A stretch of DNA of 64,000 nt, from positions 930,001 to 994,000 of the forward strand of contig OZ004586.1 of the NCBI GenBank assembly GCA_963924555.1, given 5' to 3'. A model generated the notes under the pieces. That model was not told the origin of the DNA. It did no database searches and saw only the letters and a program-made list of their open reading frames with translations. Shown piece after piece: positions 45,028 to 61,300 of the stretch. Every line of letters starts with the position of its first letter. Position 1 is the first letter of the stretch. The stretch is from Crambe crambe (lineage: Eukaryota; Porifera; Demospongiae; Poecilosclerida; Crambeidae). Position numbers and translations under genes: made by a program.

Positions 45028-45860
45028 AGGGTGAGAGTATATATAGCTTAGCTGAACTTGTTAGCTACTAGTACTTCCACCTGTTACTATATAGTTAATA
45101 TCTTATATGGTTATATCCATGGACCATCACTGTGGTGGACAGACTGACCAATCACAGTCTAGATCCGAAAAAGTGTAGACCTCTTCAAGTTGATGCTTTT
45201 TTTTCTTAAATTCATCACTGCATGGCGACACACAATAGACCTACCACCAAGCAATGAATTCATGGTATAGTCAGGTGGTGTCTAGCTTGACCTGCTGTGA
45301 TGTAAAGCTACATATAGACACAGATCGACCGTATATTCATACTGGCAGTGTGAATTCATCGAGTTGGGCTGGGTGGGCTAGCTAGCCACTAACAATGAAT
45401 ACTGCAGCTATGTATGTGGCCAGATGAACCGGATGGGTGGATCTACGAACCCTTAGCTGTCAAAGTCAATGCATGATCCATTGCTTTTGGGTGCATACAG
45501 ATGTGGGTCAAATGATTCACTCAAGAGACAGAGGTAGCTATGTACTAGCTACCAAAATTAATGATAATTATAGCTGCAGTGGAACCTCTGGACACTTTGG
45601 GATCAGCCACTTTGTCCTTGTAGAGAGGTTGTCTTTCTCTCAGAGGTTAAAAATGTACTAATGCTATGGGAAAGGGGCCCAAAAGAGCGTCCTTTGTTGG
45701 GAGGTTGTCCTTTTCTTGGAGGGTCCTTTATTGGAGGTTGCACTGTAACTACTGAACTTATAACTTTTAAGTTTAAGGAAGAAAGAAAGAAAGAAAGAAA
45801 GAGAAAGAAAGAAAGAAAGAAAGAGAAAGAAAGAAAGAAAGAAAGAAAGAGAGGTTCATA
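44140..45860. repeat. (GAAA)n tracts of the array (44139-44152, 44995-45030, 45776-45853)
   Basis: Each tract closes one unit of the array and lies about 80-120 bp from the next CCAAT block, the same relation as in the leader introns of real copies B and H. Confidence 0.75.
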
Positions 45861-46623: not shown

Positions 46624-46629
46624 GCTATG
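46624..46629. repeat. Target-site duplication GCTATG, left
   Basis: GCTATG occurs here and at 53549-53554, on either side of the transposon. Uninterrupted array units (TGCTATGGGAAAGG at 45662 and 44889) show the empty site with a single GCTATG. Confidence 0.85.
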
Positions 46630-46672
46630 TATGGAAGCCGAGAAGTGCAATTTACATCATCCGCAAGCAAAT

Positions 46673-46880
46673 TAATTTTGGCGCAAGTCTCCGCAAGTCT
46701 CCGCAAGTCTCCGCAAGGCTCCGCAAAGCTCCGCAAGGCTCCGCGAAGTCTCCGCAAAGCTCCGCAAGGCTCCGCAAAGTCTCCGCAAGTCTCCGCAAAG
46801 CTCCGCGAAGTCTCCGCAAGGCTCCGCAAGTATCCGCAAGTCTCCGCAAGTCTCCGGAAGAGCCCGCAAGTCTCCGCAAG
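46673..46880. repeat. Left subterminal 10-bp repeats (CCGCAAGTCT)n
   Basis: About twenty units of CCGCAAGTCT with CCGCAAGGCT and CCGCAAAGCT variants. The inverted right-hand array is at 53375-53500. The array is GC-rich against an AT-rich background and open in several frames, but not coding. Confidence 0.9.
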
Positions 46881-47003
46881 TTTTTCCGCCTTGCAAAATG
46901 ATTTTTTTGAAAGTTGGTAAAGGATCTTCCGCGCGTGCGACCGATAATGTACGCGCGCGCGTATGTGTGTAAGACAACTAACTATGGATGGTAAGTCTTA
47001 TTT

Positions 47004-48758
47004 ATGGTTGAAGATAGCCGTGATTTGGATATCTTTCTAGACATACTTATAGAGTTATTCTATTCGTGGAGACCGTACAAGAGGTTATTAGCCATTTTGT
47101 ACTTGAAGTATCACATGAAGAGAAGGTATCAAGTTATTAAACTGCTAGCTAACAGATTGTGTATTGACAATGACTGTTTGGTGTCTAGTTTGAGATGGCT
47201 GAAAAACCAGTTTAATTGTCTTGGGTTATCCAGGCGTTGGCCTGATCCACCTGAACACCAAGTCAGGTCCATCATCAGGGTAAGGAACAATTACATGATC
47301 ATAAACTGGCGTCTTTACATGTAGCTATGACTTAAAACTGTAGGTTGAATTGGCCTCATCTAACCAGCTTAGAGGCTATCGAGCCATGTGGCAGATTCTC
47401 AGACTCAAGTATCATCTCCTGGTCAGAAGGTAATTAAATTTCACTTAAAGATGGAATGCTATTTCAACAATAACAGAGATACTGTGATGAAAATCATGAA
47501 AGAGGAAGATCCCTGTGGTTCCGAACGAAGGCGAAAAAAGACACTAAAGAGAAGAATTTACAGAAATAAGGTACAAACGGTGTTAAAACTAGGAATAGCT
47601 ATAGCTATTATCATAATATTATTATAGGGACCAAATTTTATCTGGCATATCGATGGATATGACAAAATGACCCCATTTGGCTTCACTCTTCATGGCTGTA
47701 TTGATGGGTATGCAAATTTGTGTGCAAGGCAAATTATCATAATGTTCCTTCAGTTTTTCTAGGAAAATCATTTGGCTGAAGCTAGCCCCATCTAATAGTA
47801 ATCCAAGAGTAATAGCTAGATATTACTTGGAAAATGTGGAGCAAGTGGGAGGTAACTGTTGCAGCATGCTAGCTAGCCAGTTTACGGTGTGCATCATATA
47901 GGATGTCCATCAGTTATAAGAGGCGATTATGGCACAGAAAATCCAACAATTGCAGCTATACAAATTGCCTTTCGTTTTTATCATACCGATGGGATGGCTA
48001 ATGAAAAAAGCTTTATCTATGGACCATCCAAATCAAATATTGTAGGTGTTCAAAAAGTACATGAAACTATTTCATTTGAACTACTACTATAACCCATTTA
48101 CAGAGAATCGAGGCATGGTGGTCTCAGCTTAGAAGGCACAAAACACACTGGTGGATTGATTTTTTTAAGGTATAAATTGTTGCTAAGATAATTGCTACCA
48201 ATAATAAAATTTTCAGACCCTAGCCCACTGTGGAGACTTTGTTTCAACTAATGACTTTCACAGGTATATAATATATATATATATATATATATTATGTCAG
48301 AAATTATTATATTGCTGTTGTAATAGGAGTTGCCTGGCATATGTTGTACTTGTACCATTGAAAAAGGATCTAGCTGAATTTATTGAAACCTGGAATTCAC
48401 ACTTGATTCGTAAAAATCGCCTTTCAGAGTGTCCCAATGGAGTGCCGAATGAGCTATACGAGTTCCCATCCCTATATGGTTAGCTATAATTCAAATATCC
48501 TTTAACTTCCTTCTTTCCTAAACTTCAGGAACAGAAGATTTCTCTAAACCAATCAGTACAGATATCTGGCTTGATGCTATGATGACAGAAAGTGAACCAC
48601 CAGCACCTTTTTATTCACCAATTTTTGAAGCATGGGCTGACACTGTGCTTCGAGTTGACTTTGCCATGGACCAACAGAGTATTAGTCAATCTTTTTGTTC
48701 ATCATTGTACCATCATTTGGTTACTCATCCAGCACGGGATTTCATTATCAACAGTTAA
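47004..48758 (+). CDS. DDE integrase-core transposase, 422 aa, ten exons
   Basis: The exons are 47004-47279, 47344-47429, 47477-47570, 47628-47707, 47754-47851, 47902-48041, 48104-48169, 48217-48263, 48327-48478 and 48529-48758. All junctions are GT-AG, introns are 46-64 bp, and the joined length is 1269 bases, in frame to TAA. The protein opens [20 protein letters not shown], a helical N-terminal part. Catalytic-core motifs follow in order: [16 protein letters not shown] (first Asp), [31 protein letters not shown] (second Asp) and [12 protein letters not shown] (Glu), then [27 protein letters not shown]. This is the animal integrase-core family also abundant in fish and cnidarians. The conserved Gln before RIEAWW is Ile here. 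The gene looks functional and sits in its own transposon. Confidence 0.85.
48262..48292. repeat. (TA)n in integrase intron
   Basis: A run of about 12 TA units fills much of the intron between exons 8 and 9. Confidence 0.85.
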
Positions 48759-48884
48759 CTACTATTAAATTTTTTGACAGAATGAAATTTTTTTGACTGA
48801 ATGTGAATTGAAAGTGAATACAATTGAGTGAGTTTCTGGGTGAGCATGTCATTTGATAGCAAACAAGAAAAAAACCTGGACTAC

Positions 48885-51800
48885 TCATTCATGTGTCAAC
48901 ATTTCAAGTACCTATAATAACAACAAAAAAAGTCAACCAGGAGCAGTAGAGAGCACACATCAAAGCTAGTGATCTGCACACCCTCACTATTCAGTGCCCA
49001 GTTACCCACAATACACATACACATTCCCAGCCAGCCACAAGTGTGTAAACATGACCCCCTTACATCTGATGATTGTGCCCTGACACTGTGTCTCTTCAAG
49101 CAAGCTGAGATAATGTTGAAATAGTAGTCACAAGAAGGAGGGGGCACACCTAAAAAAGAATCGTATACATCACTGAACTTAGTCCGATCGGAGATCTCTT
49201 CTTGTAGGGAATCAACCTACAATGCCAGATCAAGAATCAGATCATCAGTGAAAAATGTTGGATTGTAATTTAGAATGCATAGGGGCTATTATTTTAATAC
49301 ACTTTAAATCGATGTACATACCAGCTTGGGATCATCTCTCTCTTCATCATAAGCTTTAAGTCCAGAATAGGTTTCTAAAATAACCTGAAAGTACATGGAT
49401 CTAAATATTTTGGGCATGACCACCCAACTTACAACACCAAAACAGTATACATCACTCCTATCAGAGATTTTTCCAGAACACACTTCAGAAGGGTAATAGC
49501 CCTCGGATCTAGATATGAAGTTGGCAGTAAATAGTGTCTGGCCACTAGATACAGATGGTAATTCTACAGAAAAGCCGAAGTCACCCAATTTCGCTTTATA
49601 AGCCTCATCAAGAAGAATATTTGCACTGCAGCAATATATCAATATCACATAACATGAAATTACAGTCTATAAAACGTACGATTTAATATCCTGGTGAATT
49701 AGTGGAGGGGTGGCTGTATGCAGGTACACAAGGCCTTTACAAGCATCTACCAGGATAGATTTCCTCCTGTCCCACGAAAGCAACTGATCTCTTTCCTATT
49801 ACACAAAAGGAAGTCAAAATCAATTCAGCTTACAAGTACTAGGTTGGCATTACATTATGAAGCTTCTCAAATAGGCTTCCATTCATCATAAACTCAAATA
49901 TTAGTGCAGGTGGCTTGGAGCAAAACCCAAGCATCTGTAGCACATTAGGATGGCGGAAACTGAAATATGAACACAGGATTATAAGCTGAACCTTTTAAAA
50001 ACATCTCCTACCGATTCAAAGCTCCTACTTCTGTTTGAAGTAACATAGAGGAGCTACAACCAAGAGCATTCTTACCATCCTATAATAGAAGTTTACCGTC
50101 CTATAAGTTGTAACACTACAGATATACACATTCATTAGAATAACCTGTGATAAGACCTTGATTGCCACACTGCCATAACGCAACACACCTTTATACACCG
50201 TACCATAGCCACCTCTACCAATCACTGTTGAACGACAGAAATTCCGTGTCGATTCACTAAGTTCTTGTGCAAAAAATTCCATACACTGATCTATAGTACA
50301 TACGAAAAAGCATATGCTATATGTATATGCACAAGATAAAACTAGCAAACCAGCTTTAGGCCTTTTTGCAGGATGCCTTGATGCCCTAGGACAACCAGCC
50401 TCCCTAATGGTAGTTTGAGATAATGGACGCTTCCCTTTTCCCTTTCCTTTCTTTGAAAGAGCCTTATCCGAACTTTGCTCATCAACTGTTAGTAACATAA
50501 GCAATGCTAAATACTTAAGTGCCAAGTACTGTTTACTGATGATAGAATCAGTATCAGATTTTGAAGCAGGGCTGGAACAACTGCGATAACCAGAGGATGA
50601 ATGGATAGGTGAAATTGGTGCCTATGTGCACAAATCAAAATGTGAAGGTGGGCCAATACAGAATCTGATAAGACTAACCGTAGATACAAAACCAATCCCA
50701 AATTGAAGTTTGCCTGGTCCCCTATGGTGCTGATGCATATACAAACTCAATGACCAGTCCTTACTCTCCTTTATCATGGCCCCCCCAGGAGTAAATAAGG
50801 CAGTGGTATGCCTAAATGGGAGAGGAGAACAGTCGAGTGCATCACAACCCGATGACAACAGATCTTTATAATTAATATCTCTATCCACTATAATTTCAAT
50901 TGAAAAACCATCTTTAACATAATTTTTTTTCCTCTTCCTCATGGAAAAAAAAGTTACCTAGATAAATGCAATACAAGTCAAACATCTCGGGCAGTTACAC
51001 ATCAATCTGTATGCACTATATAAACCTTTACTTACAGGACATGAAGAACTTTCACCTATAATCTTAGGAGTCCTTTTCAATTTTTTCTGGATCTCATTAG
51101 CCCTTTTAAGTAGATCAGACGATTTAAGTAGATCAGACGAGGCTTCTGTGTGTGTGTGTGTGTTGAGAACAAAAATTCTCTCTTAGTCACACAAGCACAG
51201 ATAGTCTGGTACAACTCCTATATTGCATAATTGGGACACTGATAGCACCACCAGACTCTCTTCTCAGGTGAGAGTCTGTGCAAGATTTCTCTTACATAAA
51301 ATTTACTGTACTATTTCTTGAAATACAGTTCATTCTAGTGCCTGAGACTCCAATATCTCAAATAAAGCACATCACCCACTTACCTATATCATAGATAGTA
51401 GACACGGAACAGGATTGGAAACTGCCTACGTCATGTGACGTCACGCCCATTAAGCTAATACATTTCGCGCATGCTATCCGCGTTGTAACCATAGAAAATT
51501 TAGCCCTATTGTCGCAATACATTTTCTGAGGAAGAGAGGTACAGACTTTGTGGGACTAGAGCTACGAGTGCAAGTGCTTTTCTAGCAATTTTATCCTATA
51601 GAAGTTTGGAAGGTAAAGTTTCTTACTGGAATAGACTGAAATTAAGAGTGTAATAACTGTTTTTGGTGTAGGATATGTTGCTAAAGATTTTATAGGCCTA
51701 CCAATTTGTGGGACTAGAACAGGACTCACATAAATTTAGAAGTCAAGTGTTTGGTATCTTTTAGTAGTATAATAGTTTGTCTATCGGATGATATATGTTA

Positions 51801-53248
51801 TATTGATTCATAGCTGTTAGTTTTCTTTTAATGCAGTGTTAAACTATGGGTTAAATAGTTATTATTATTACATTTCTATTATTTATTTGCATTATCATGT
51901 TTTATTATCCACTCCACGAAGCTCTCTGCACAAGAACGGGCATCTATAGATGGTTGGAGAAGAAGACTAAACTCTTCATCTTTCAAAACTTGAGATACGA
52001 ATCTCTCATAGATATGTACTATCTAGCTAGATCTAGTCTCATATCAAATTTTATTATTTTTATAAAAGCACAACATGGAAACACTCTAGTCCAGCTAATA
52101 TTAAGCTACTAGACTAATATCCGCTCTGATATCTTTTGCAGAACTCATTCTTAACTATTATGTGGTAACTATGCATTCATATCTCGCGCCAAAATTTCCC
52201 GGCAAACACGGATAGCACGCGCATGGTAGTATTAAGTTTCCAATCCTGTTCCGTGTCTACTATCTATGCCTATATCCTTTTGAGGATGTGGCTCTTTTAA
52301 CATATCTGCGATAAGTCCGTGCATCTCACTTGATAGCGTCAATAAGCGTTCTTTTCTTGACCTCATTTATACTATTCAGCGAGCTCGAGACTAACTATAA
52401 CTATTCAATAGGCTAACTATTCAATAGCTGCATGCAAAGGTGAACTAACTGTAAGCTTATCACGTGCACACAATCCTACATGATGAACCCTTTACCTACC
52501 TACCCCGACCATGTTCCAGAAGGAGACATACTTTTATCTACTACTTACCCACATCACTTTCAGGATCATGCTTTTCTGGGTGTATGTTTGCAAACATCAC
52601 TCTCTCTGCCTGTATATGTAGACCTCTGAATCAGTGCTCAAGAATGAGGCTACAACTTACTTCCTCTGCATTGATACTGAATTGCTCCATCACAAGACAC
52701 TTTATTGCTTCTGGGTAGAGGATGGCAATTGTATAGCCAAAAAGCTAACCACAAGCATGCTAGTAAAACTTGTTAATACAGCCTGTGCATAATTATACCT
52801 TCATGCTTTCGACACAAAAGTGATGGGTTAGCCTGTCATATAGAGCATATGTAGCTTTTGATGAGACACAAGTTATAAAATACGATTTGTTTGTCAGCTC
52901 ATCTATTGTACATTCAATAAGCAATAACCTTACACACCTTGATTAATCAGCTAGCTACATACTTTTTGTCTTGCAGGAACCCTGCCACCACTTCCTGTGG
53001 CTTTCCAAAGGAACCTGCATATATATTATGGGTTACATTATGTTACATTATGTGCAGGTGTACTGATACAACCTGGGAGGAGTATTGATGAGGTATCTCC
53101 TACTGCTACCTGAATCTTTGCTCCTTGCACTAACCTTTCCATCAGCTATCTTCTTTAGGTGATCAATAAAAGAAGGCAGCCTAGAAAGAAGATCAGCTTC
53201 TGTTAATGTACTAAATTCAAGTGCTCTTTTCGAGTCAGTGGAACTCAT
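48885..53248 (-). CDS. IRAK/TKL-like protein kinase, 675 aa, inside transposon
   Basis: Eighteen exons read in frame from the ATG at 53248 to a TGA at 48885 (2028 bases). The exons, from 5' to 3', end or begin at 53110, 52963-53014, 52799-52928, 52661-52744, 52549-52609, 52270-52350, 51036-51145, 50679-50957, 50537-50621, 50351-50485, 50145-50290, 50012-50079, 49854-49959, 49680-49795, 49433-49625, 49322-49384, 49064-49216 and 48885-48911. The N-terminal region is helical and unrecognised (LLSRLPSFIDHLKKIADGK; LFGYTIAILYPEAIKCLVME). A KRKKNYVKDGFSIEIIVDRD segment and a Lys-rich linker follow. The kinase domain has GRGGYGTVYKG, VAIK, IHQDIKSANILLD (HQD in place of HRD), GDFGF and SDRSDVYCFGV, closest in style to IRAK/Pelle. 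Catalytic residues are present. The sixth exon's donor is disturbed by an inserted element. Confidence 0.8.
51390..52268. mobile_element. 879-bp TIR element inserted at a kinase splice donor
   Basis: The ends CATAGATAGTAGACACGGAA and TTCCGTGTCTACTATCTATG are perfect inverted repeats, extending through GGATTGGAAACT for over 30 bp. CCTATATC flanks both sides (51383-51390 and 52269-52276; 7-8-bp duplication, one base shared with the end). There is no transposase. It is related to 7708-8815 through the shared inner motif GGATTGGAAAC. Removing it restores the exon end GATATAG followed by GTAAGT. Confidence 0.8.
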
Positions 53249-53374
53249 GTCGCTGTTCTTCTTCCTATGGCTAGAAAAAATTGAGAGAGCACGCTCATGC
53301 GTACCCGCCCGCGCCACAGCTGGCCGGCCGCCGTGCGCACACGGGGATCCTTTACCAACTTGCTTTTGCACTTG

Positions 53375-53500
53375 CGGAGACTTGCGGAGACTTGCGGAGG
53401 CTTGCGGAGGATTGCGGAGGCTTGCGGAGGAATGCGGAGACTTGCGGAGACTTGCGGAGACTTGCGGAGCCTTGCGGAGATTTGCGGAGACTTGCGCCGC
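53375..53500. repeat. Right subterminal 10-bp repeats (CTTGCGGAGA)n
   Basis: About thirteen inverted units matching the left array at 46673-46880. Confidence 0.9.
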
Positions 53501-53548
53501 ATGCTAATTTGCTTGCGGATGATGTAATTGCACTTCTCGGCTTCCATA

Positions 53549-54695
53549 GCTATGGGAAAGGGGCCCAAAAGAGTGTCCTTTGTTAGAAGGTTGTCCTTTT
53601 CTTGGAGGGTCCTTCGGAAGTTCCACTGTAACTACTGAACTTATAACTTTAAAGAAAGAAAGAAAAAAAAAGAAAGAAAGAAAGAAAGAAGGGTGAGTAA
53701 GTGGAGGTTCATATTAGCTGAACTTGTTACTTACATCTGCTAGTAGTTAGTTATGATCTAGTTAATTCCTTATATGGTTATATTCATGGGGCATCACTGC
53801 AGTGGACAGACTGACCAATCACAGCCCAGGTCCAAAAAGATGTAGACCTCATGGCGCTTTTTTTCTTAAATTCATCACTGCATAGCGACACACAATAGAC
53901 CTACCACCAAGCAATGATTAGTCAGGTGGTGTCTAGCTCAATCTGCTATGATGTGAAGCTATAGATGCAGATCAACTATATTATATTCATACTGGCAGTA
54001 TGAATTCATCGAATTGGGTTGGGTGGGCTAGCTATACTAACCAGCTAGCTATATAGCTATGTGGTGGATCTACAAGAAATTATAAAAGTTAACTACTAAA
54101 ATTAAAAAACTTTTTTACTAGCATCATTAGCTATTTTGCAGTGCTTCATTAGCAGGGGTGTAGCCACCACTCCAGCTGGTCTGGTTTTCATTTATTATCC
54201 CCTTTTTTACCTATGAAATGCAACACACCTTAACCATCCATCTTTGCAAAATTCACACTAGCATAACTTTACTGGTCAAAAAGTGGGCATGGCTGTCCAA
54301 AAATTTCCACACACAGGCACACTGGACCACTCAAAATTCTGTAGATACACCCCTGTTTATGTACATGTGGATACCCTGCTTATGTACATGTGGATACCCT
54401 GCTTATGTACACTATACATGCTTTAGATAAGGAAATTGTTAGTCATGGCTGAGCTATATAACTGGTGGTGACTGGTGAACCCATAATAGGTACATACTGA
54501 CTCATAATAGCATACCATACTAATTTCTGATTTAATTAACAATTGGGTGTCACCAACATTAATTAAGCCCTCCATATGGTGACCTGGTAAAGGGTTGCAT
54601 AAGCCCATGTGCTACCCTTGGATGATTTTTAATGCTATATAGTCTTTGCTATATTAACATATATTATCATGATATTTTACAGGTGAAGGAATTAA
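53549..54695. repeat. End of tandem array and 3' flank of collagen gene
   Basis: It begins with the right GCTATG and the continuation of the interrupted array unit, then a (GAAA)n tract (53652-53690), another orphan CCAAT block (about 53801-53820), and DNA shared with 18470-19530. Several short tandem copies of ATGTACATGTGGATACCCTG occur at 54360-54405. No gene is seen. Confidence 0.7.
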
Positions 54696-55379: not shown

Positions 55380-58300
55380 CTGCATATGGTTGATTATAAT
55401 TACAACTTCATGTAAGGTCACAGATCCTTTACGGCATAGCTACTTACAACTAATGGCTGGCATAAGGAATAGTCAAATGTACACCAATCAGTGCAAGTCA
55501 CAGTTCCTATGTACCTGAAGAAATTTGCAAAGTTCAAAAGATCTCGTGTTGTTAGCAGCGGTATGCAAACTCACGGTATTTTATGCAATGATTGACAAGT
55601 GTTGTTGCCAAGGTCATATCCATCACACTCTTCCCCTTCCTCTATCCTGTCATTTCCACACTAAATGGGAACAATTGAGCAATTAAGTACACAATACATT
55701 TCCAGGGAGATCCACCTTAATCAGTCGTGGATATGCTTCAGTATCCCTCTTCTTTCTGTTATGTTCATGAGGATGTGGAAATGTTCTTCTTGCTTGGTCA
55801 AAAGTGTCTCTTCTTTTCCTGCTATGTCCAGAAGATGGAGAAGGTTGAGCATCTTCTGTTACCTACAGAAAATGCATCGATATTACTATTCTAATTATAA
55901 GACATTTCAGGGGTCACTGTACCTTGACCTCTCTCCACCCCTGAGAAGTGTATATGTAGAGAAGTTGAGAATCAGTTGTGAAGGCAATGCTGCCAATAGC
56001 TGGGTCAGTAAAGGTAGAATTCAATTCTTCAAATGAAGAAAATAGTTGTGCCTAAGAGATTGCAATATAAAAGGAGTCAGTGGGGATCATTCATTATTTT
56101 TTACTCTGATTAACACCAACCATCATCATTCCTGGGGGTCCTTGTGTTCCGATATCTCCTTTGCCCCCTCTAATTCCTTGAGGTCCTGGTGCTCCCATGC
56201 ACCCTTTAGCCCCCTCATTACCAGTGTTCCCTTTTCGCCCCTGCACACCTCGTTCCCCCTGTGGTCCTTGGGGCCCAGCAGGACCAGGATTTCCCAGCAG
56301 ACCACGTTTTCCCTTGGGGCCAACATCACCTAAATAGATGATGATTTTACACTAGCCAATACCCATGGCATGTCCTAACATTGTAGTTACACAGTAGTGT
56401 GCTGGCTCGCTAAGCTTGAGGACTTGGGTTCAAGCCCCAATTTGACCAGGTTTTTTTTTCCTTCTCAATTTTCATTTCGCACTGATAAGCACATTATTAT
56501 ATAGATTACCTGGGGGTCCAGCATCCCCCTTCTGTCCCTTCTCCCCTCCAGGGTCCCCCTTAGCTCCTTGCTCCCCCTTCACTCCATGTGTTCCGGGGTT
56601 ACCAATACAACCCTTTGGCCCTAAGGAAAAAGTAAGCTTTTGTAATTTTATTTTTTGAGGACCTACTCATTCATTATACCTTCATCTCCCCTCTCTCCCT
56701 TCCGTCCACGGGGACCAAATTCTCCAATGTCCCCCTTAGGCCCAAGAGGTCCCTTCAATCCTACGTCCCCCATTAGTCCTTTCTCCCCCATCACACCTGG
56801 TGGGCCTGGAAACACTGAAGAAGAAAAGAAAAATGATAATAAGAAGAGAATTATGTAATAATAAACATACCTAAAACATCACCAGGGAGCCCCCTGTCTC
56901 CTCTATCTCCCTTCTCACCCATCACCCCCTACACAACAACAGAATAAGCATAATTATACACATCAATCAATCACATGCATGTCAATGGGGGGATTCATTA
57001 CAGCCCCCTGCAATAATTAGGTGGAGTATGATCTCCCTACTTATTGATATTCACCTGTCCTCCATTAGTTCCATTCCTTCCATCTTGTCCATCCGAGCCA
57101 TTGCGTCCTTGTGGCCCTACGGGACCCACTAGCCCTTGCTTCCCTGGGAGGCCTCTCCTTCCTGGGTTTCCCCTCTTTCCTGGTAGCCCTCGACTACCAG
57201 GTCTGCCTGCACGTCCCATGGTGCCTGGCTCACCATCAGTACCATTAATACCAGCTGCAGGATTTCACAATGTAGCAAATCAAAGTATTTGAGGAGGAGA
57301 GGGAAGGAGGGGAGAGGAGGGAGGAGAGAAGGGAGGAGGGAGAAGGAGAGGGAAGGAGGGGAGAGGAGGGAGGAGAGAAGGGAGGAGGGAGAAGGAGAGG
57401 GAAGGAGGGGAGAGGAGGGAGGAGGGAGAAGGAGGGAGGAGGGAGGATGGAAAGGAGAGGGGAAGGAGGGGAGAGGAGGGAGGAGGGGAAGGAGGGGAGA
57501 GGAGGGAGGAGGGAAAGGAGAGGGGAAGGAGGGAGAAGGAAAGGGGAAAGGGGGAGGGGGAGGAGAGAGAGGGGTAGAGAATATAGTAACTATGACCAAA
57601 AGAGCACATACCTTTTCCTGGTAAGCCCATTCTTCCTGGAGTCCCAGGACGTCCTACTTTCCCTGGCAATCCCTGTCGTCCTGGGTTGCCTTCTTTCCCA
57701 GGAAATCCCCTTTGTCCCGGTCGTCCCCGAGGACCAATCTTCCCAGGGAGACCTCTGCTCCCAGGACGGCCAGCTGTTCCATTATTACCAGGCATTCCTT
57801 TTTCACCATCACTTCCTTCCTTGCCTGGTAACCCTCGACTACCAGGGCGCCCCTGTAATAATTAATAAGACTATGCATGAAAATACCAATCCATTAAGCA
57901 GTGAACATGTATCGCACTAGTTTTCCTGGAAGACCCATTCTTCCTGAGGTACCATTCCTTCCACTCTCCCCTTTCATCCCCTGGTCTCCTGGTCTTCCAT
58001 CTTTCCCTGGTAACCCTCTGCTTCCCGGACGTCCAGTCAAACCAGTTTTACCAGGAACACCTTCAACCAAAAGAAAGTTTCTTGCTTTCAATTTATACAC
58101 TCCAGTCCTAGCCCTTAGCCCTAGCCCACCCCCAGCACTAGCCCTAGCCCTTAGCCCTTAGCCCTAGCCGCATACATACGTACCTCTCATTCCAGGATCT
58201 CCTGCTTCTCCCTTTTCGCCATCAAGCCCTGAGTCACCAGGAGTGCCGGAAGTGCCAGGGATTCCTGGCTTACCTGGTAAGCCTCTACCACCAGGCTCCC

Positions 58301-61300
58301 CTGGATCACCCTACAAGTCATCAGTAAAGTTATCCACAGAGAAGTCATAGCTACATACCCTTGTTCCATTTCCAGCCTGTGAGAGAAAATCAAAACATTG
58401 ATGACAATAGTACCTTTCAATACATTAATGTTACTTACCAAATCTCCTGGTATGCCGGGAGGTCCTGGGGGCCCAGCTGGACCAATGAACCCCTATGTAA
58501 TAAGCGATAATGGCATCATTATTGATAATTGAAGGGGTTGCCTCAATCTTGCGTACAGTTTTTCCAGGCAGTCCTTGCATTCCAGGCACTCCCTTATCAC
58601 CTTTTGGTCCAACGTCTCCTGGCATTCCCTGTGGTGTGATTAACATTGGAGTTAACCTAGGACTGTAGCATCGAACTAACTGACCTCTGGGCCTGACGGT
58701 CCAGTATTCCCTTTCATGCCCTGCATATACACAAACACCAAAAAATTTCACGACTTCCTTAAAAACAGGAAATTTCATTTGACCTGTTTTCCAGGCTGGC
58801 CCATTCTTCCAGGTCGTCCAGGGTCACCAGCATCACCTTTCTCTCCCTCTTCCCCCTGCAATGGAGAAACAATCATGCATTCACACTCCAGGGATAACCC
58901 TGCTAATTATAGGATTTTAAAGACACCTACTTGTAGTCCAGTTTTTCCTGCTCTCCCAGGAATACCGGGCATTCCTGATGCTCCATCAATGCCCTGTGGA
59001 TTGCAGGAAGAAGAAGAATAAGCTCAAGATCAGTAAAATAGATCATCTGCTTCATCGCCTAGTTCATTTCTTACAGGTTTTCCAGGCACACCTCTGCTCC
59101 CAGGTTCTCCTGGTGTTCCCGGGGTCCCATTTCTTCCAGGAAGACCCTGAGGAAGATAGAGAGAGAGGATGTGGGGGGAGGGAGGGAGGGAGAGGGAGAG
59201 GGTGGAGGAAGAGGGTGTGGGGAGAGAGAGGAGAGAGAGGAGGAGGGAAGAGGGTGTGGGGGGAGAGAAGAGGAGGGAGGGAGGTGGTGTGGGGAGAGGG
59301 GAGGAGGAAGGAAGAGGGTGTGGGGAGAGAGAGGAGGAGGGAGGTAGAGGGTGTGGGGAGAGAGAGGAGGAGGGAGGAAGAGGGTGCGAGAGAGAGGAGG
59401 AGGGAAGGAGAGGGTAGGAGAAAGAGGAGGAGGGAGGTAGAGGGTGTGGAGAGAGAGGAGGAGGAGGGAAGGAGAAAGTGTGGAGAGAGAGGAGGAGGGA
59501 GGGAGAGGGTGTGGGGAGAGAGAGGAGGAGGGAGGGAGAGGGTGTGGGGAGAGAGAAGGGGTTGATTAAAATGCACACTAGAGTGTACATAACTATGCAC
59601 CATTTTCCCTGGCAACCCCCTGCTGCCCGGCTCTCCAACAGCTCCATTTGTACCATTAATTCCAACACTGCCCTGAATCATACACAATGTTATGTACAGA
59701 AAGTTGATATCAGTTCTTCCAAGCTACATTTGATTCACACCTTTTCACCACTTTCTCCCTTCATTCCAGCTTCCCCCTTTTCTCCGGTCATGCCTGGAAT
59801 ACCCTACAATCAAAGGAAATGGTGAAGATCCAAGGAGATATGAGACAAAGGTAGGTACTACTACTTACAGGAAAGCCCTTTCGTCCCTGTTGTCCTGGAA
59901 TTCCAGCATCTCCTTTCATGCCAGGCACTCCCTTACCCCCCCTCTCTCCTGGAATTCCATCAGCACCTTTTTCACCATCAGCACCAGACCGACCCTGAAG
60001 TACAAAATGTCCCATATTGAACACTTGGAGAGAGTTATCATAATGTGTGTGCATTTTATATTTTTACTGGTTTTCCTGTCCTTCCTTCAGCTCCTGGCAA
60101 CCCTGGGGGCCCTTGTGGTCCTGGCAACCCCTAAAATATAAACAATATGTGATCATATAGTGGAAGTCATGACACTCAATAAACTGCACACCCTTTTTCC
60201 TACTGGTCCAGTCCTGCCAGGTGTTCCAGGTATACCATCAGTGCCATTGATACCAGGAAGGCCCTAAGTTGTTGAAAAAGCAAACAGACAGATCAACAAA
60301 CAAACAAATAAACAAATAAACAAAATTATAACAAACAAACAAACTAGCTAATAAAAAAACCAGTAATGACTCACAGTATTTCCTTTTCTTCCAGGTATGC
60401 CTGGAGTTCCATCAGTCCCGTTGATTCCATCTCTGCCAGGAATGCCTGGGACCCCCTAACAGGTGAAAATGAAAATGAACTTTGAACTCTCAGGAACTAT
60501 AATGGAGATAAGCTTATCATTAGCTCTATATGCACATTTTTTCCAGGGACACCTCGAGAACCAGGAACTCCCGATGTTCCATTCAAACCTGGAGACCCAC
60601 TCTCTCCAGGAAGACCCTATACGAAAAAGAAAGATGATATATTGCTATGTTAGCTACTCCCACATTTAACGATTAATACTTACAGACTTTCCAGGAACTC
60701 CTCGCTGTCCAGGATCTCCAGGTTCACCTTTGACCCCTCCTGGACCTGGAGGACCCTATTGAGAGTGTCAGTGAGTAGCTAAATGTTACTTGCTGTCACA
60801 CTTAAACTTACAATCATTCCAGCAGGGCCTTGCTCGCCGATACCTCCCTTCTCTCCTTTGACCCCTGATAGACCCTAATCAGCAGAGAGGGCAGAGTTTA
60901 GCTAGTGCATCATAAGAGGAGGATACAACGAACGATACTGTTACCATTTTCCCCGGCAATCCAGTCATTCCTGGTTCTCCTGGTGCACCATCATCTCCTG
61001 GATCGCCAGAAGAACCCTACAAGCACAGAGAGAAATTGTAAATATGTTGGGGAATGCACAAGTTTACCTGTGGTCCTGGGGAGCCTGGTGCTCCTGGCAT
61101 TCCTGTTGGTCCCATTGGTCCTGGAACCCCCTTGAATATTAAAGAAGTTGATAAGACCTTTGGTTAATTGATACATGTAACTCACTTTTTTACCAGGTGG
61201 ACCTGTTCGTCCTGGTTGTCCTGAGAGACCATCCATACCCGAAGTACCAGGAAGACCAGGCTTTCCCGGAAGCCCCCTCTGTCCTGGTTCTCCTGCCCCA

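Follow-up and report, generated by a model that had tools for sequence, protein, structure and literature searches.

The window, a 64,000-nucleotide stretch of the Crambe crambe genome (contig OZ004586.1, positions 930,001 to 994,000), contains a transposable element with two convergent spliced genes, one for a DDE integrase and one for a protein kinase (Table 1). The interval first annotated from the sequence, 46624..53554, corresponds to the element at 46630-53548 plus its two GCTATG duplications, and the border features of that initial annotation are all borne out. The inverted ends are a perfect 20-bp match, and this exact end recurs across the genome (22 + 24 = 46 occurrences versus 0 for the reversed pattern); GCTATG is present on both sides; and the flanks match paralogous units at 45663 and 44890 that read through without the element and thus represent empty sites. 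These flanks belong to a tandem-repeated region with units of roughly 0.8-0.9 kb. The subterminal 10-bp arrays are possible integrase-binding sites. The array unit is family-specific, being CCGCAAGTCT in the window copy, CCGCACTGAA in L062 and CCGACGCGAA in L011. Purine-rich GGAGG-type tandem arrays also occur in the window outside the element, at 57291-57573 and 59178-59559.

Table 1 Features of the two-gene element, in positions of the window.
Feature	Position	Strand	Remarks
Whole element	46630-53548		Two convergent spliced genes (integrase +, kinase -); 46624-53554 with both duplications
Left target-site duplication	46624..46629	.	GCTATG
Left terminal inverted repeat	46630..46649	+	TATGGAAGCCGAGAAGTGCA
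Left subterminal array	46682..46881	.	~20 copies of 10-bp unit CCGCAAGTCT
Integrase gene (rva_4, DDE)	47004..48758	+	10 exons as modelled; Pfam match, splicing
Integrase exons 1-5	47004-47279, 47344-47429, 47477-47570, 47628-47707, 47763-47851	+
Integrase exons 6-10	47902-48041, 48104-48169, 48217-48263, 48327-48478, 48529-48758	+
Probable extra integrase intron (within exon 1)	47126-47188	+	63 nt, GT-AG, frame-neutral in window copy
Kinase gene	48885..53248	-	18 exons, 642 aa; kinase domain ~residues 355-636, ubiquitin-like fold ~187-279
Kinase exon 15	49433..49625	-	ANILLD segment and DFG motif
Kinase exon 14	49680-49795	-	Holds HQDIK
Kinase exon 8	50679..50957	-	Conserved domain, predicted ubiquitin-like (beta-grasp) fold
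Nested 879-bp repeat	51390..52268	.	34-bp perfect inverted ends, ATATAGG on both sides; at kinase exon-6 donor
Right subterminal array	53370..53496	.	~13 copies of 10-bp unit CCGCAAGTCT, inverted orientation
Right terminal inverted repeat	53529..53548	-
Right target-site duplication	53549..53554	.	GCTATG

The ten modelled exons of the integrase gene splice to a 419-aa frame with GT-AG introns. The protein matches rva_4 in Pfam at 1e-28 and, weakly, HTH_21, with D161, D217 and E258, assigned by position, as the putative DDE residues. Because stop codons interrupt the central part of exon 1 in the integrases of L059, L060 and L062, an additional intron in that stretch is likely, and the gene is likely to have 11 exons and to encode 398 aa. 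An intact ten-exon DDE integrase had been annotated initially; the open frame and splice sites agree with this, and ten exons is a minimum.

The kinase protein matches Pkinase (PF00069) at 3e-34. Compared with solved structures, its kinase domain is closest to plant RIPK/PBL kinases (6.5e-40 and 2.5e-39), which slightly outscore IRAK1 (1.7e-38) and IRAK4 (2.4e-38). The VAIK, HQDIKSAN and DFG motifs are all present, with HQD standing where IRAK/RLK kinases have HRD. A Death domain was detected neither in the window kinase, at E 1, nor, at E 5, in three relatives whose N-termini are incomplete, and neither the alpha-kinase family, an atypical kinase family, nor a TET domain is among the Pfam matches. 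An RTC4-like N-terminus (PF14474) was considered and rejected, as it scores 16.7 bits against a cut-off of 23.7 and does not recur in the three relatives scanned, which lack part of the N-terminus. The modelled exon-8 domain (pLDDT 88.7, from 5 sequences) has the strand-helix order of a beta-grasp, and its best structure matches, RYBP C-terminal, UBL, Atg8/LC3 and ubiquitin chains, are weak (E 0.008-0.1, best 0.0084, none <= 0.001); this middle domain is a candidate ubiquitin-like fold.

Counting the window's own, the genome holds 41 long matches to the repeat nested in the kinase gene, at 94-100% identity. At the exon-6 donor beside it the window copy has GC versus GTAAGT in the 7/10 other copies read at this site (ATATAGGCATAG versus ATATAGGTAAGT, the latter preceded by an extra A in L014). 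With the repeat in this position the window kinase is therefore probably mis-spliced, and this copy of the gene is probably damaged. Copy L019 holds the same 879-bp repeat elsewhere and inverted. An in-frame, eighteen-exon, IRAK-like kinase on the opposite strand had been described at this locus, and its 18 exons, 642 aa, convergent orientation and IRAK-like kinase domain are retained here; no Death domain was detected in it, and in this copy the gene is probably disrupted at its exon-6 donor.

The window's own family (family A) was surveyed in twenty stretches of the genome. The initial annotation had asked whether other full copies share both genes: among exact 20-bp end pairs 5.9-7.1 kb apart, 10/11 hold integrase and kinase (L009, L012, L013, L014, L015, which is the window copy, and L016-L020). 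These ten are ~94-100% identical in nucleotides by pieces, except for one 1.1-kb stretch of L019 (89%), and 7/10 have exact duplications, over 6 bp in L009, L014, L015, L016, L017 and L020 (6/10; the CTTTTT of L016 is simple sequence) and over 7 bp in L013; L019 matches at 5 of 6 positions, and L012 and L018 have none. L013, L015 (which contains the nested insert), L016 and L017 keep both genes open. Kinase exon 7 of L016 has lost 18 nt in frame, and flags at the exon-6 donor or exon-7 acceptor in the projections of L013, L016 and L017 proved to be alignment effects. Each of the remaining six pairs has one or both genes broken when the gene model is projected onto it. The eleventh pair, L011 (G000:C3:5748439-5754842), has the same ends, an AATTAT duplication, a diverged and nearly open kinase and no integrase. 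A further copy with both genes (L025/L026) has TAATGG at both ends and spans 23.6 kb, interrupted near one end, and L010 and L023 are partial or decayed copies. It had also been envisaged that copies with identical ends might never contain the kinase; short end-paired derivatives are present, such as L008 of 0.4 kb and L028 of 1.3 kb, but the long pairs carry both genes or, in L011, the kinase alone. Ten dispersed, end-paired, two-gene copies with different flanks, seven of them with exact duplications, together with the empty sites, rule out a single accident in which assembly error or chance brought ends and kinase together, a reading of negligible probability for which no supporting point was found.

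Kinase loci were tallied from genome searches with the integrase and kinase proteins, and the counts are among the matches listed; 41 loci were classed as element-type by identity and exon-like pieces, host rows were classed by low identity and long open frames, and proximity was set as an integrase within 4 kb. Among the matches listed, 24/41 element-type kinase loci are convergent with an intron-type integrase (family A, 12/12; family B, 5/5; family C, 5/6; others, 2/18), 16/41 lack an integrase within 4 kb, and at one further locus the integrase is on the same strand. None of the host-type kinases lies near an integrase (0/40 rows entered). A 16-bp terminus, TATGGAAGCCGAGAAG, is common to diverged families whose kinases are 42-55% identical. 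Ten pairs of this terminus were picked from the first 100 of 112 places; 9/10 bracket a kinase locus (families B and C, L061, L011 and L021), and 6 of these 9 also an integrase. The ends of L062 are TATGGAAGCCGAGAAGGGCA, with a GTATAT duplication. The 16 integrase-less kinase loci are 41-82% identical by matched piece. L011, L021 and one family C locus among them sit between paired 16-bp ends, and C16:4509391 lies near a single end; among the places listed, no 16-bp end lies beside seven others (C3:1094103, C3:3939684, C5:3342109, C8:9050361, C9:3378495, C11:6248682 and C12:3072373), and the rest are on contigs outside the 16-bp-end list. Some of the seven loci with neither end nor integrase could be host genes. 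We note that the tenth 16-bp pair (C3:5115514-5122162 of G000), with ends 6.6 kb apart, brackets neither gene in the tallied tables, and that contig C11 (G000:C11:1631179-3837452) has eighteen isolated 16-bp ends over ~2.2 Mb, 17 on the + strand, whereas ends elsewhere are paired.

The kinase travels with the element, and between lineages it retains its frame, splice sites and catalytic motifs. In spliced alignments, stop-free diverged kinase frames extend over 621 aa in L059 (46.7% identical), 492 aa in L062 and 279 aa in L060, with one frameshift over 574 aa in L011 and two over 231 aa in L061. HQDIKSAN and DFG are identical in 6/6 lineages, the VAIK lysine is retained, within VA(I/V)K or LAVK, and splice positions are kept between kinases of lineages 42-55% identical. 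As dS is saturated in 14/15 kinase pairs, pN and pS alone were used; pN is below pS in 15/15 lineage pairs (pN 0.22-0.44; pS 0.72-0.86, at or near saturation), and when two of these pairs were divided by region, the kinase domain had the lowest pN (0.26-0.32) and the linker the highest (0.54-0.59). Within family A (11 copies), exons have diverged as much as introns (kinase 0.0052 versus 0.0051, integrase 0.0059 versus 0.0057) and show no sign of selection, a pattern expected of copies that decay once inserted. When 5 lineages were compared for parallel divergence of the two genes, integrase and kinase distances correlated only weakly (Pearson r = 0.38, p = 0.28, from 10 pairs that are not independent). 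In a kinase tree with long branches and no outgroup, the six element kinases fall on one side of a branch (100/98) and 12 host kinases on the other.

Trapping of a host gene between transposon ends is known as Pack-type capture, and the kinase could in this way be passive cargo, copied without serving the element. Such an origin would agree with the equal divergence of exons and introns within family A and with the movement of gene-less short end-paired copies, but it is quite unlikely in view of the frame, splice positions and catalytic motifs kept at 42-55% identity and of a layout that recurs in families A, B and C.

A different gene accompanies more distant integrases. Of three distant rva_4 loci examined, L076 carries a HECT frame of 369 aa in convergent orientation (2.4e-10), L077 has HECT pieces (1e-7 and 0.07), and inspection of the 5.5 kb of L078 gave no convergent HECT frame. 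L076 and L077 thus resemble the kinase element in pairing an rva_4 integrase with a convergent signalling-enzyme gene, and differ in having a HECT ligase for the kinase and an integrase that is one long frame. Among the rva_4 matches entered (93 of 155), 31 have a HECT match within 4 kb and none has an element-type kinase nearby; among the intron-type integrases (n=36), 25 have such a kinase nearby and none a HECT match. The HECT rows entered form 71 clusters, 28 of them at >= 42 bits with none near an rva_4 match, and 43 below 42 bits that are convergent with rva_4 (26), divergent (3), on the same strand (1) or alone (13). No HECT-type ends were found by end pattern in L076-L078 or by inspecting inverted repeats of L076 and L077, so the placement of HECT genes inside element borders is presumptive. 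In L076 a weak UBX match (0.0068, below its cut-off) lies upstream of the HECT frame, a hint that this locus too encodes a ubiquitin-like domain.

These loci bear on whether the kinase instead benefits the sponge, as a signalling gene (in immunity, for instance) carried along by the element and maintained by host-level selection. We regard this as unlikely, since there is no constraint within family A, the distant rva_4 integrases are accompanied by a HECT ligase rather than the kinase, and rows classed as host kinases are 27-38% identical to the queries; on its side are the IRAK/RLK-type kinase domain, a genome rich in related kinases, and the 16 integrase-less kinase loci, some of which could be element-free host genes.

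With reasonable confidence, we interpret the element as a two-gene, IS3EU-type cut-and-paste transposon in which the convergent second gene, the kinase, is retained through selection on elements and would contribute to the element's success. Most likely this second gene is old and selected, and it seems to have been long in the company of this transposon family. The integrase would recognise the ends, and perhaps also the subterminal CCGCAAG arrays, and move the element, making 6-bp duplications. An ancestor common to at least four present-day families would have acquired the kinase, most simply in one event, and selection on elements would have retained it thereafter. Its predicted product, in which an uncharacterised N-terminus precedes a ubiquitin-like domain and a serine/threonine kinase of IRAK/RLK type, may be active and aid the element by phosphorylating either the element's transposase or a host factor. 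Such a factor would act in chromatin, DNA repair or defence, and the ubiquitin-like domain would direct the kinase to it. Of these two likeliest targets, the host factor is favoured because HECT genes adjoin distant rva_4 integrases, which suggests post-translational modification of a host protein as the common task of kinase and HECT. The initial annotation had left open whether the kinase is a captured host gene spread by transposition or serves the element; the ten copies bear out its spread with the element, and conservation across diverged families favours service to the element, by an action that is putative. The usual view of eukaryotic cut-and-paste elements is that they require hardly more than a transposase. 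A kinase kept across diverged families and a HECT gene in the matching position point to post-translational control of host factors in the element life cycle, and the element kinase is a concrete gene with which to test such control.

IS3EU families, a superfamily held in Repbase and grouped with GingerRoot, are described as having TA..TA termini and usually 6-bp duplications (PMC10045372), and those of rust fungi as having TAYGG..CCRTA termini (PMC12730594). The sponge element has TATGG..CCATA termini and an integrase-like DDE transposase, and its duplications are mostly 6 bp long (GCTATG here; exact 6 bp in 6/10 two-gene copies). Ends, duplication and integrase therefore fit IS3EU, the integrase being a candidate member of the IS3EU clade by its rva_4 domain match. 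It differs in its intron-rich transposase gene and its IRAK/RLK-type kinase, a gene that does not appear in the portions of the published descriptions consulted. A search of published papers found neither an IRAK/RLK-type kinase inside an IS3EU element nor IS3EU together with HECT. A paper on kinases and transposons in Coccidioides (PMC5872316) was set aside as a precedent, as the kinase genes it describes, in the text available, lie near elements and not inside them.

The closest likeness is to fungal IS3EU elements: in all TET-carrying families as described in 2025, a TET/JBP gene lies between oppositely oriented transposase and alpha-kinase genes (PMC12730594). A kinase is thus the second gene, opposite to the transposase, in both; the fungal elements have an alpha-kinase and the intervening TET/JBP gene, whereas the sponge element has a conventional Pkinase with a ubiquitin-like domain. 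A kinase in an IS3EU element therefore has a precedent, of another kinase family, and the initial statement that a two-gene element with a kinase was not known as described was too strong. Rather doubtful, although compatible with these cases, is the wider proposal that IS3EU transposons are generally two-gene machines, in which a transposase is joined by an exchangeable convergent signalling-enzyme gene (IRAK/RLK-type kinase or HECT here, alpha-kinase in fungi) whose product a ubiquitin-like domain would lead to one transposition-limiting host process. The element kinase resembles IRAK1/IRAK4 and plant RLK/RIPK kinases in its kinase domain (best E ~1e-40 to 1e-38) and differs from them in lacking a detected Death domain, in HQD for HRD and in being transposon-borne. 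KolobokP transposons, which carry a homing endonuclease (PMC9587614), are likewise DDE transposons with a second enzyme gene, of another superfamily and with another enzyme.
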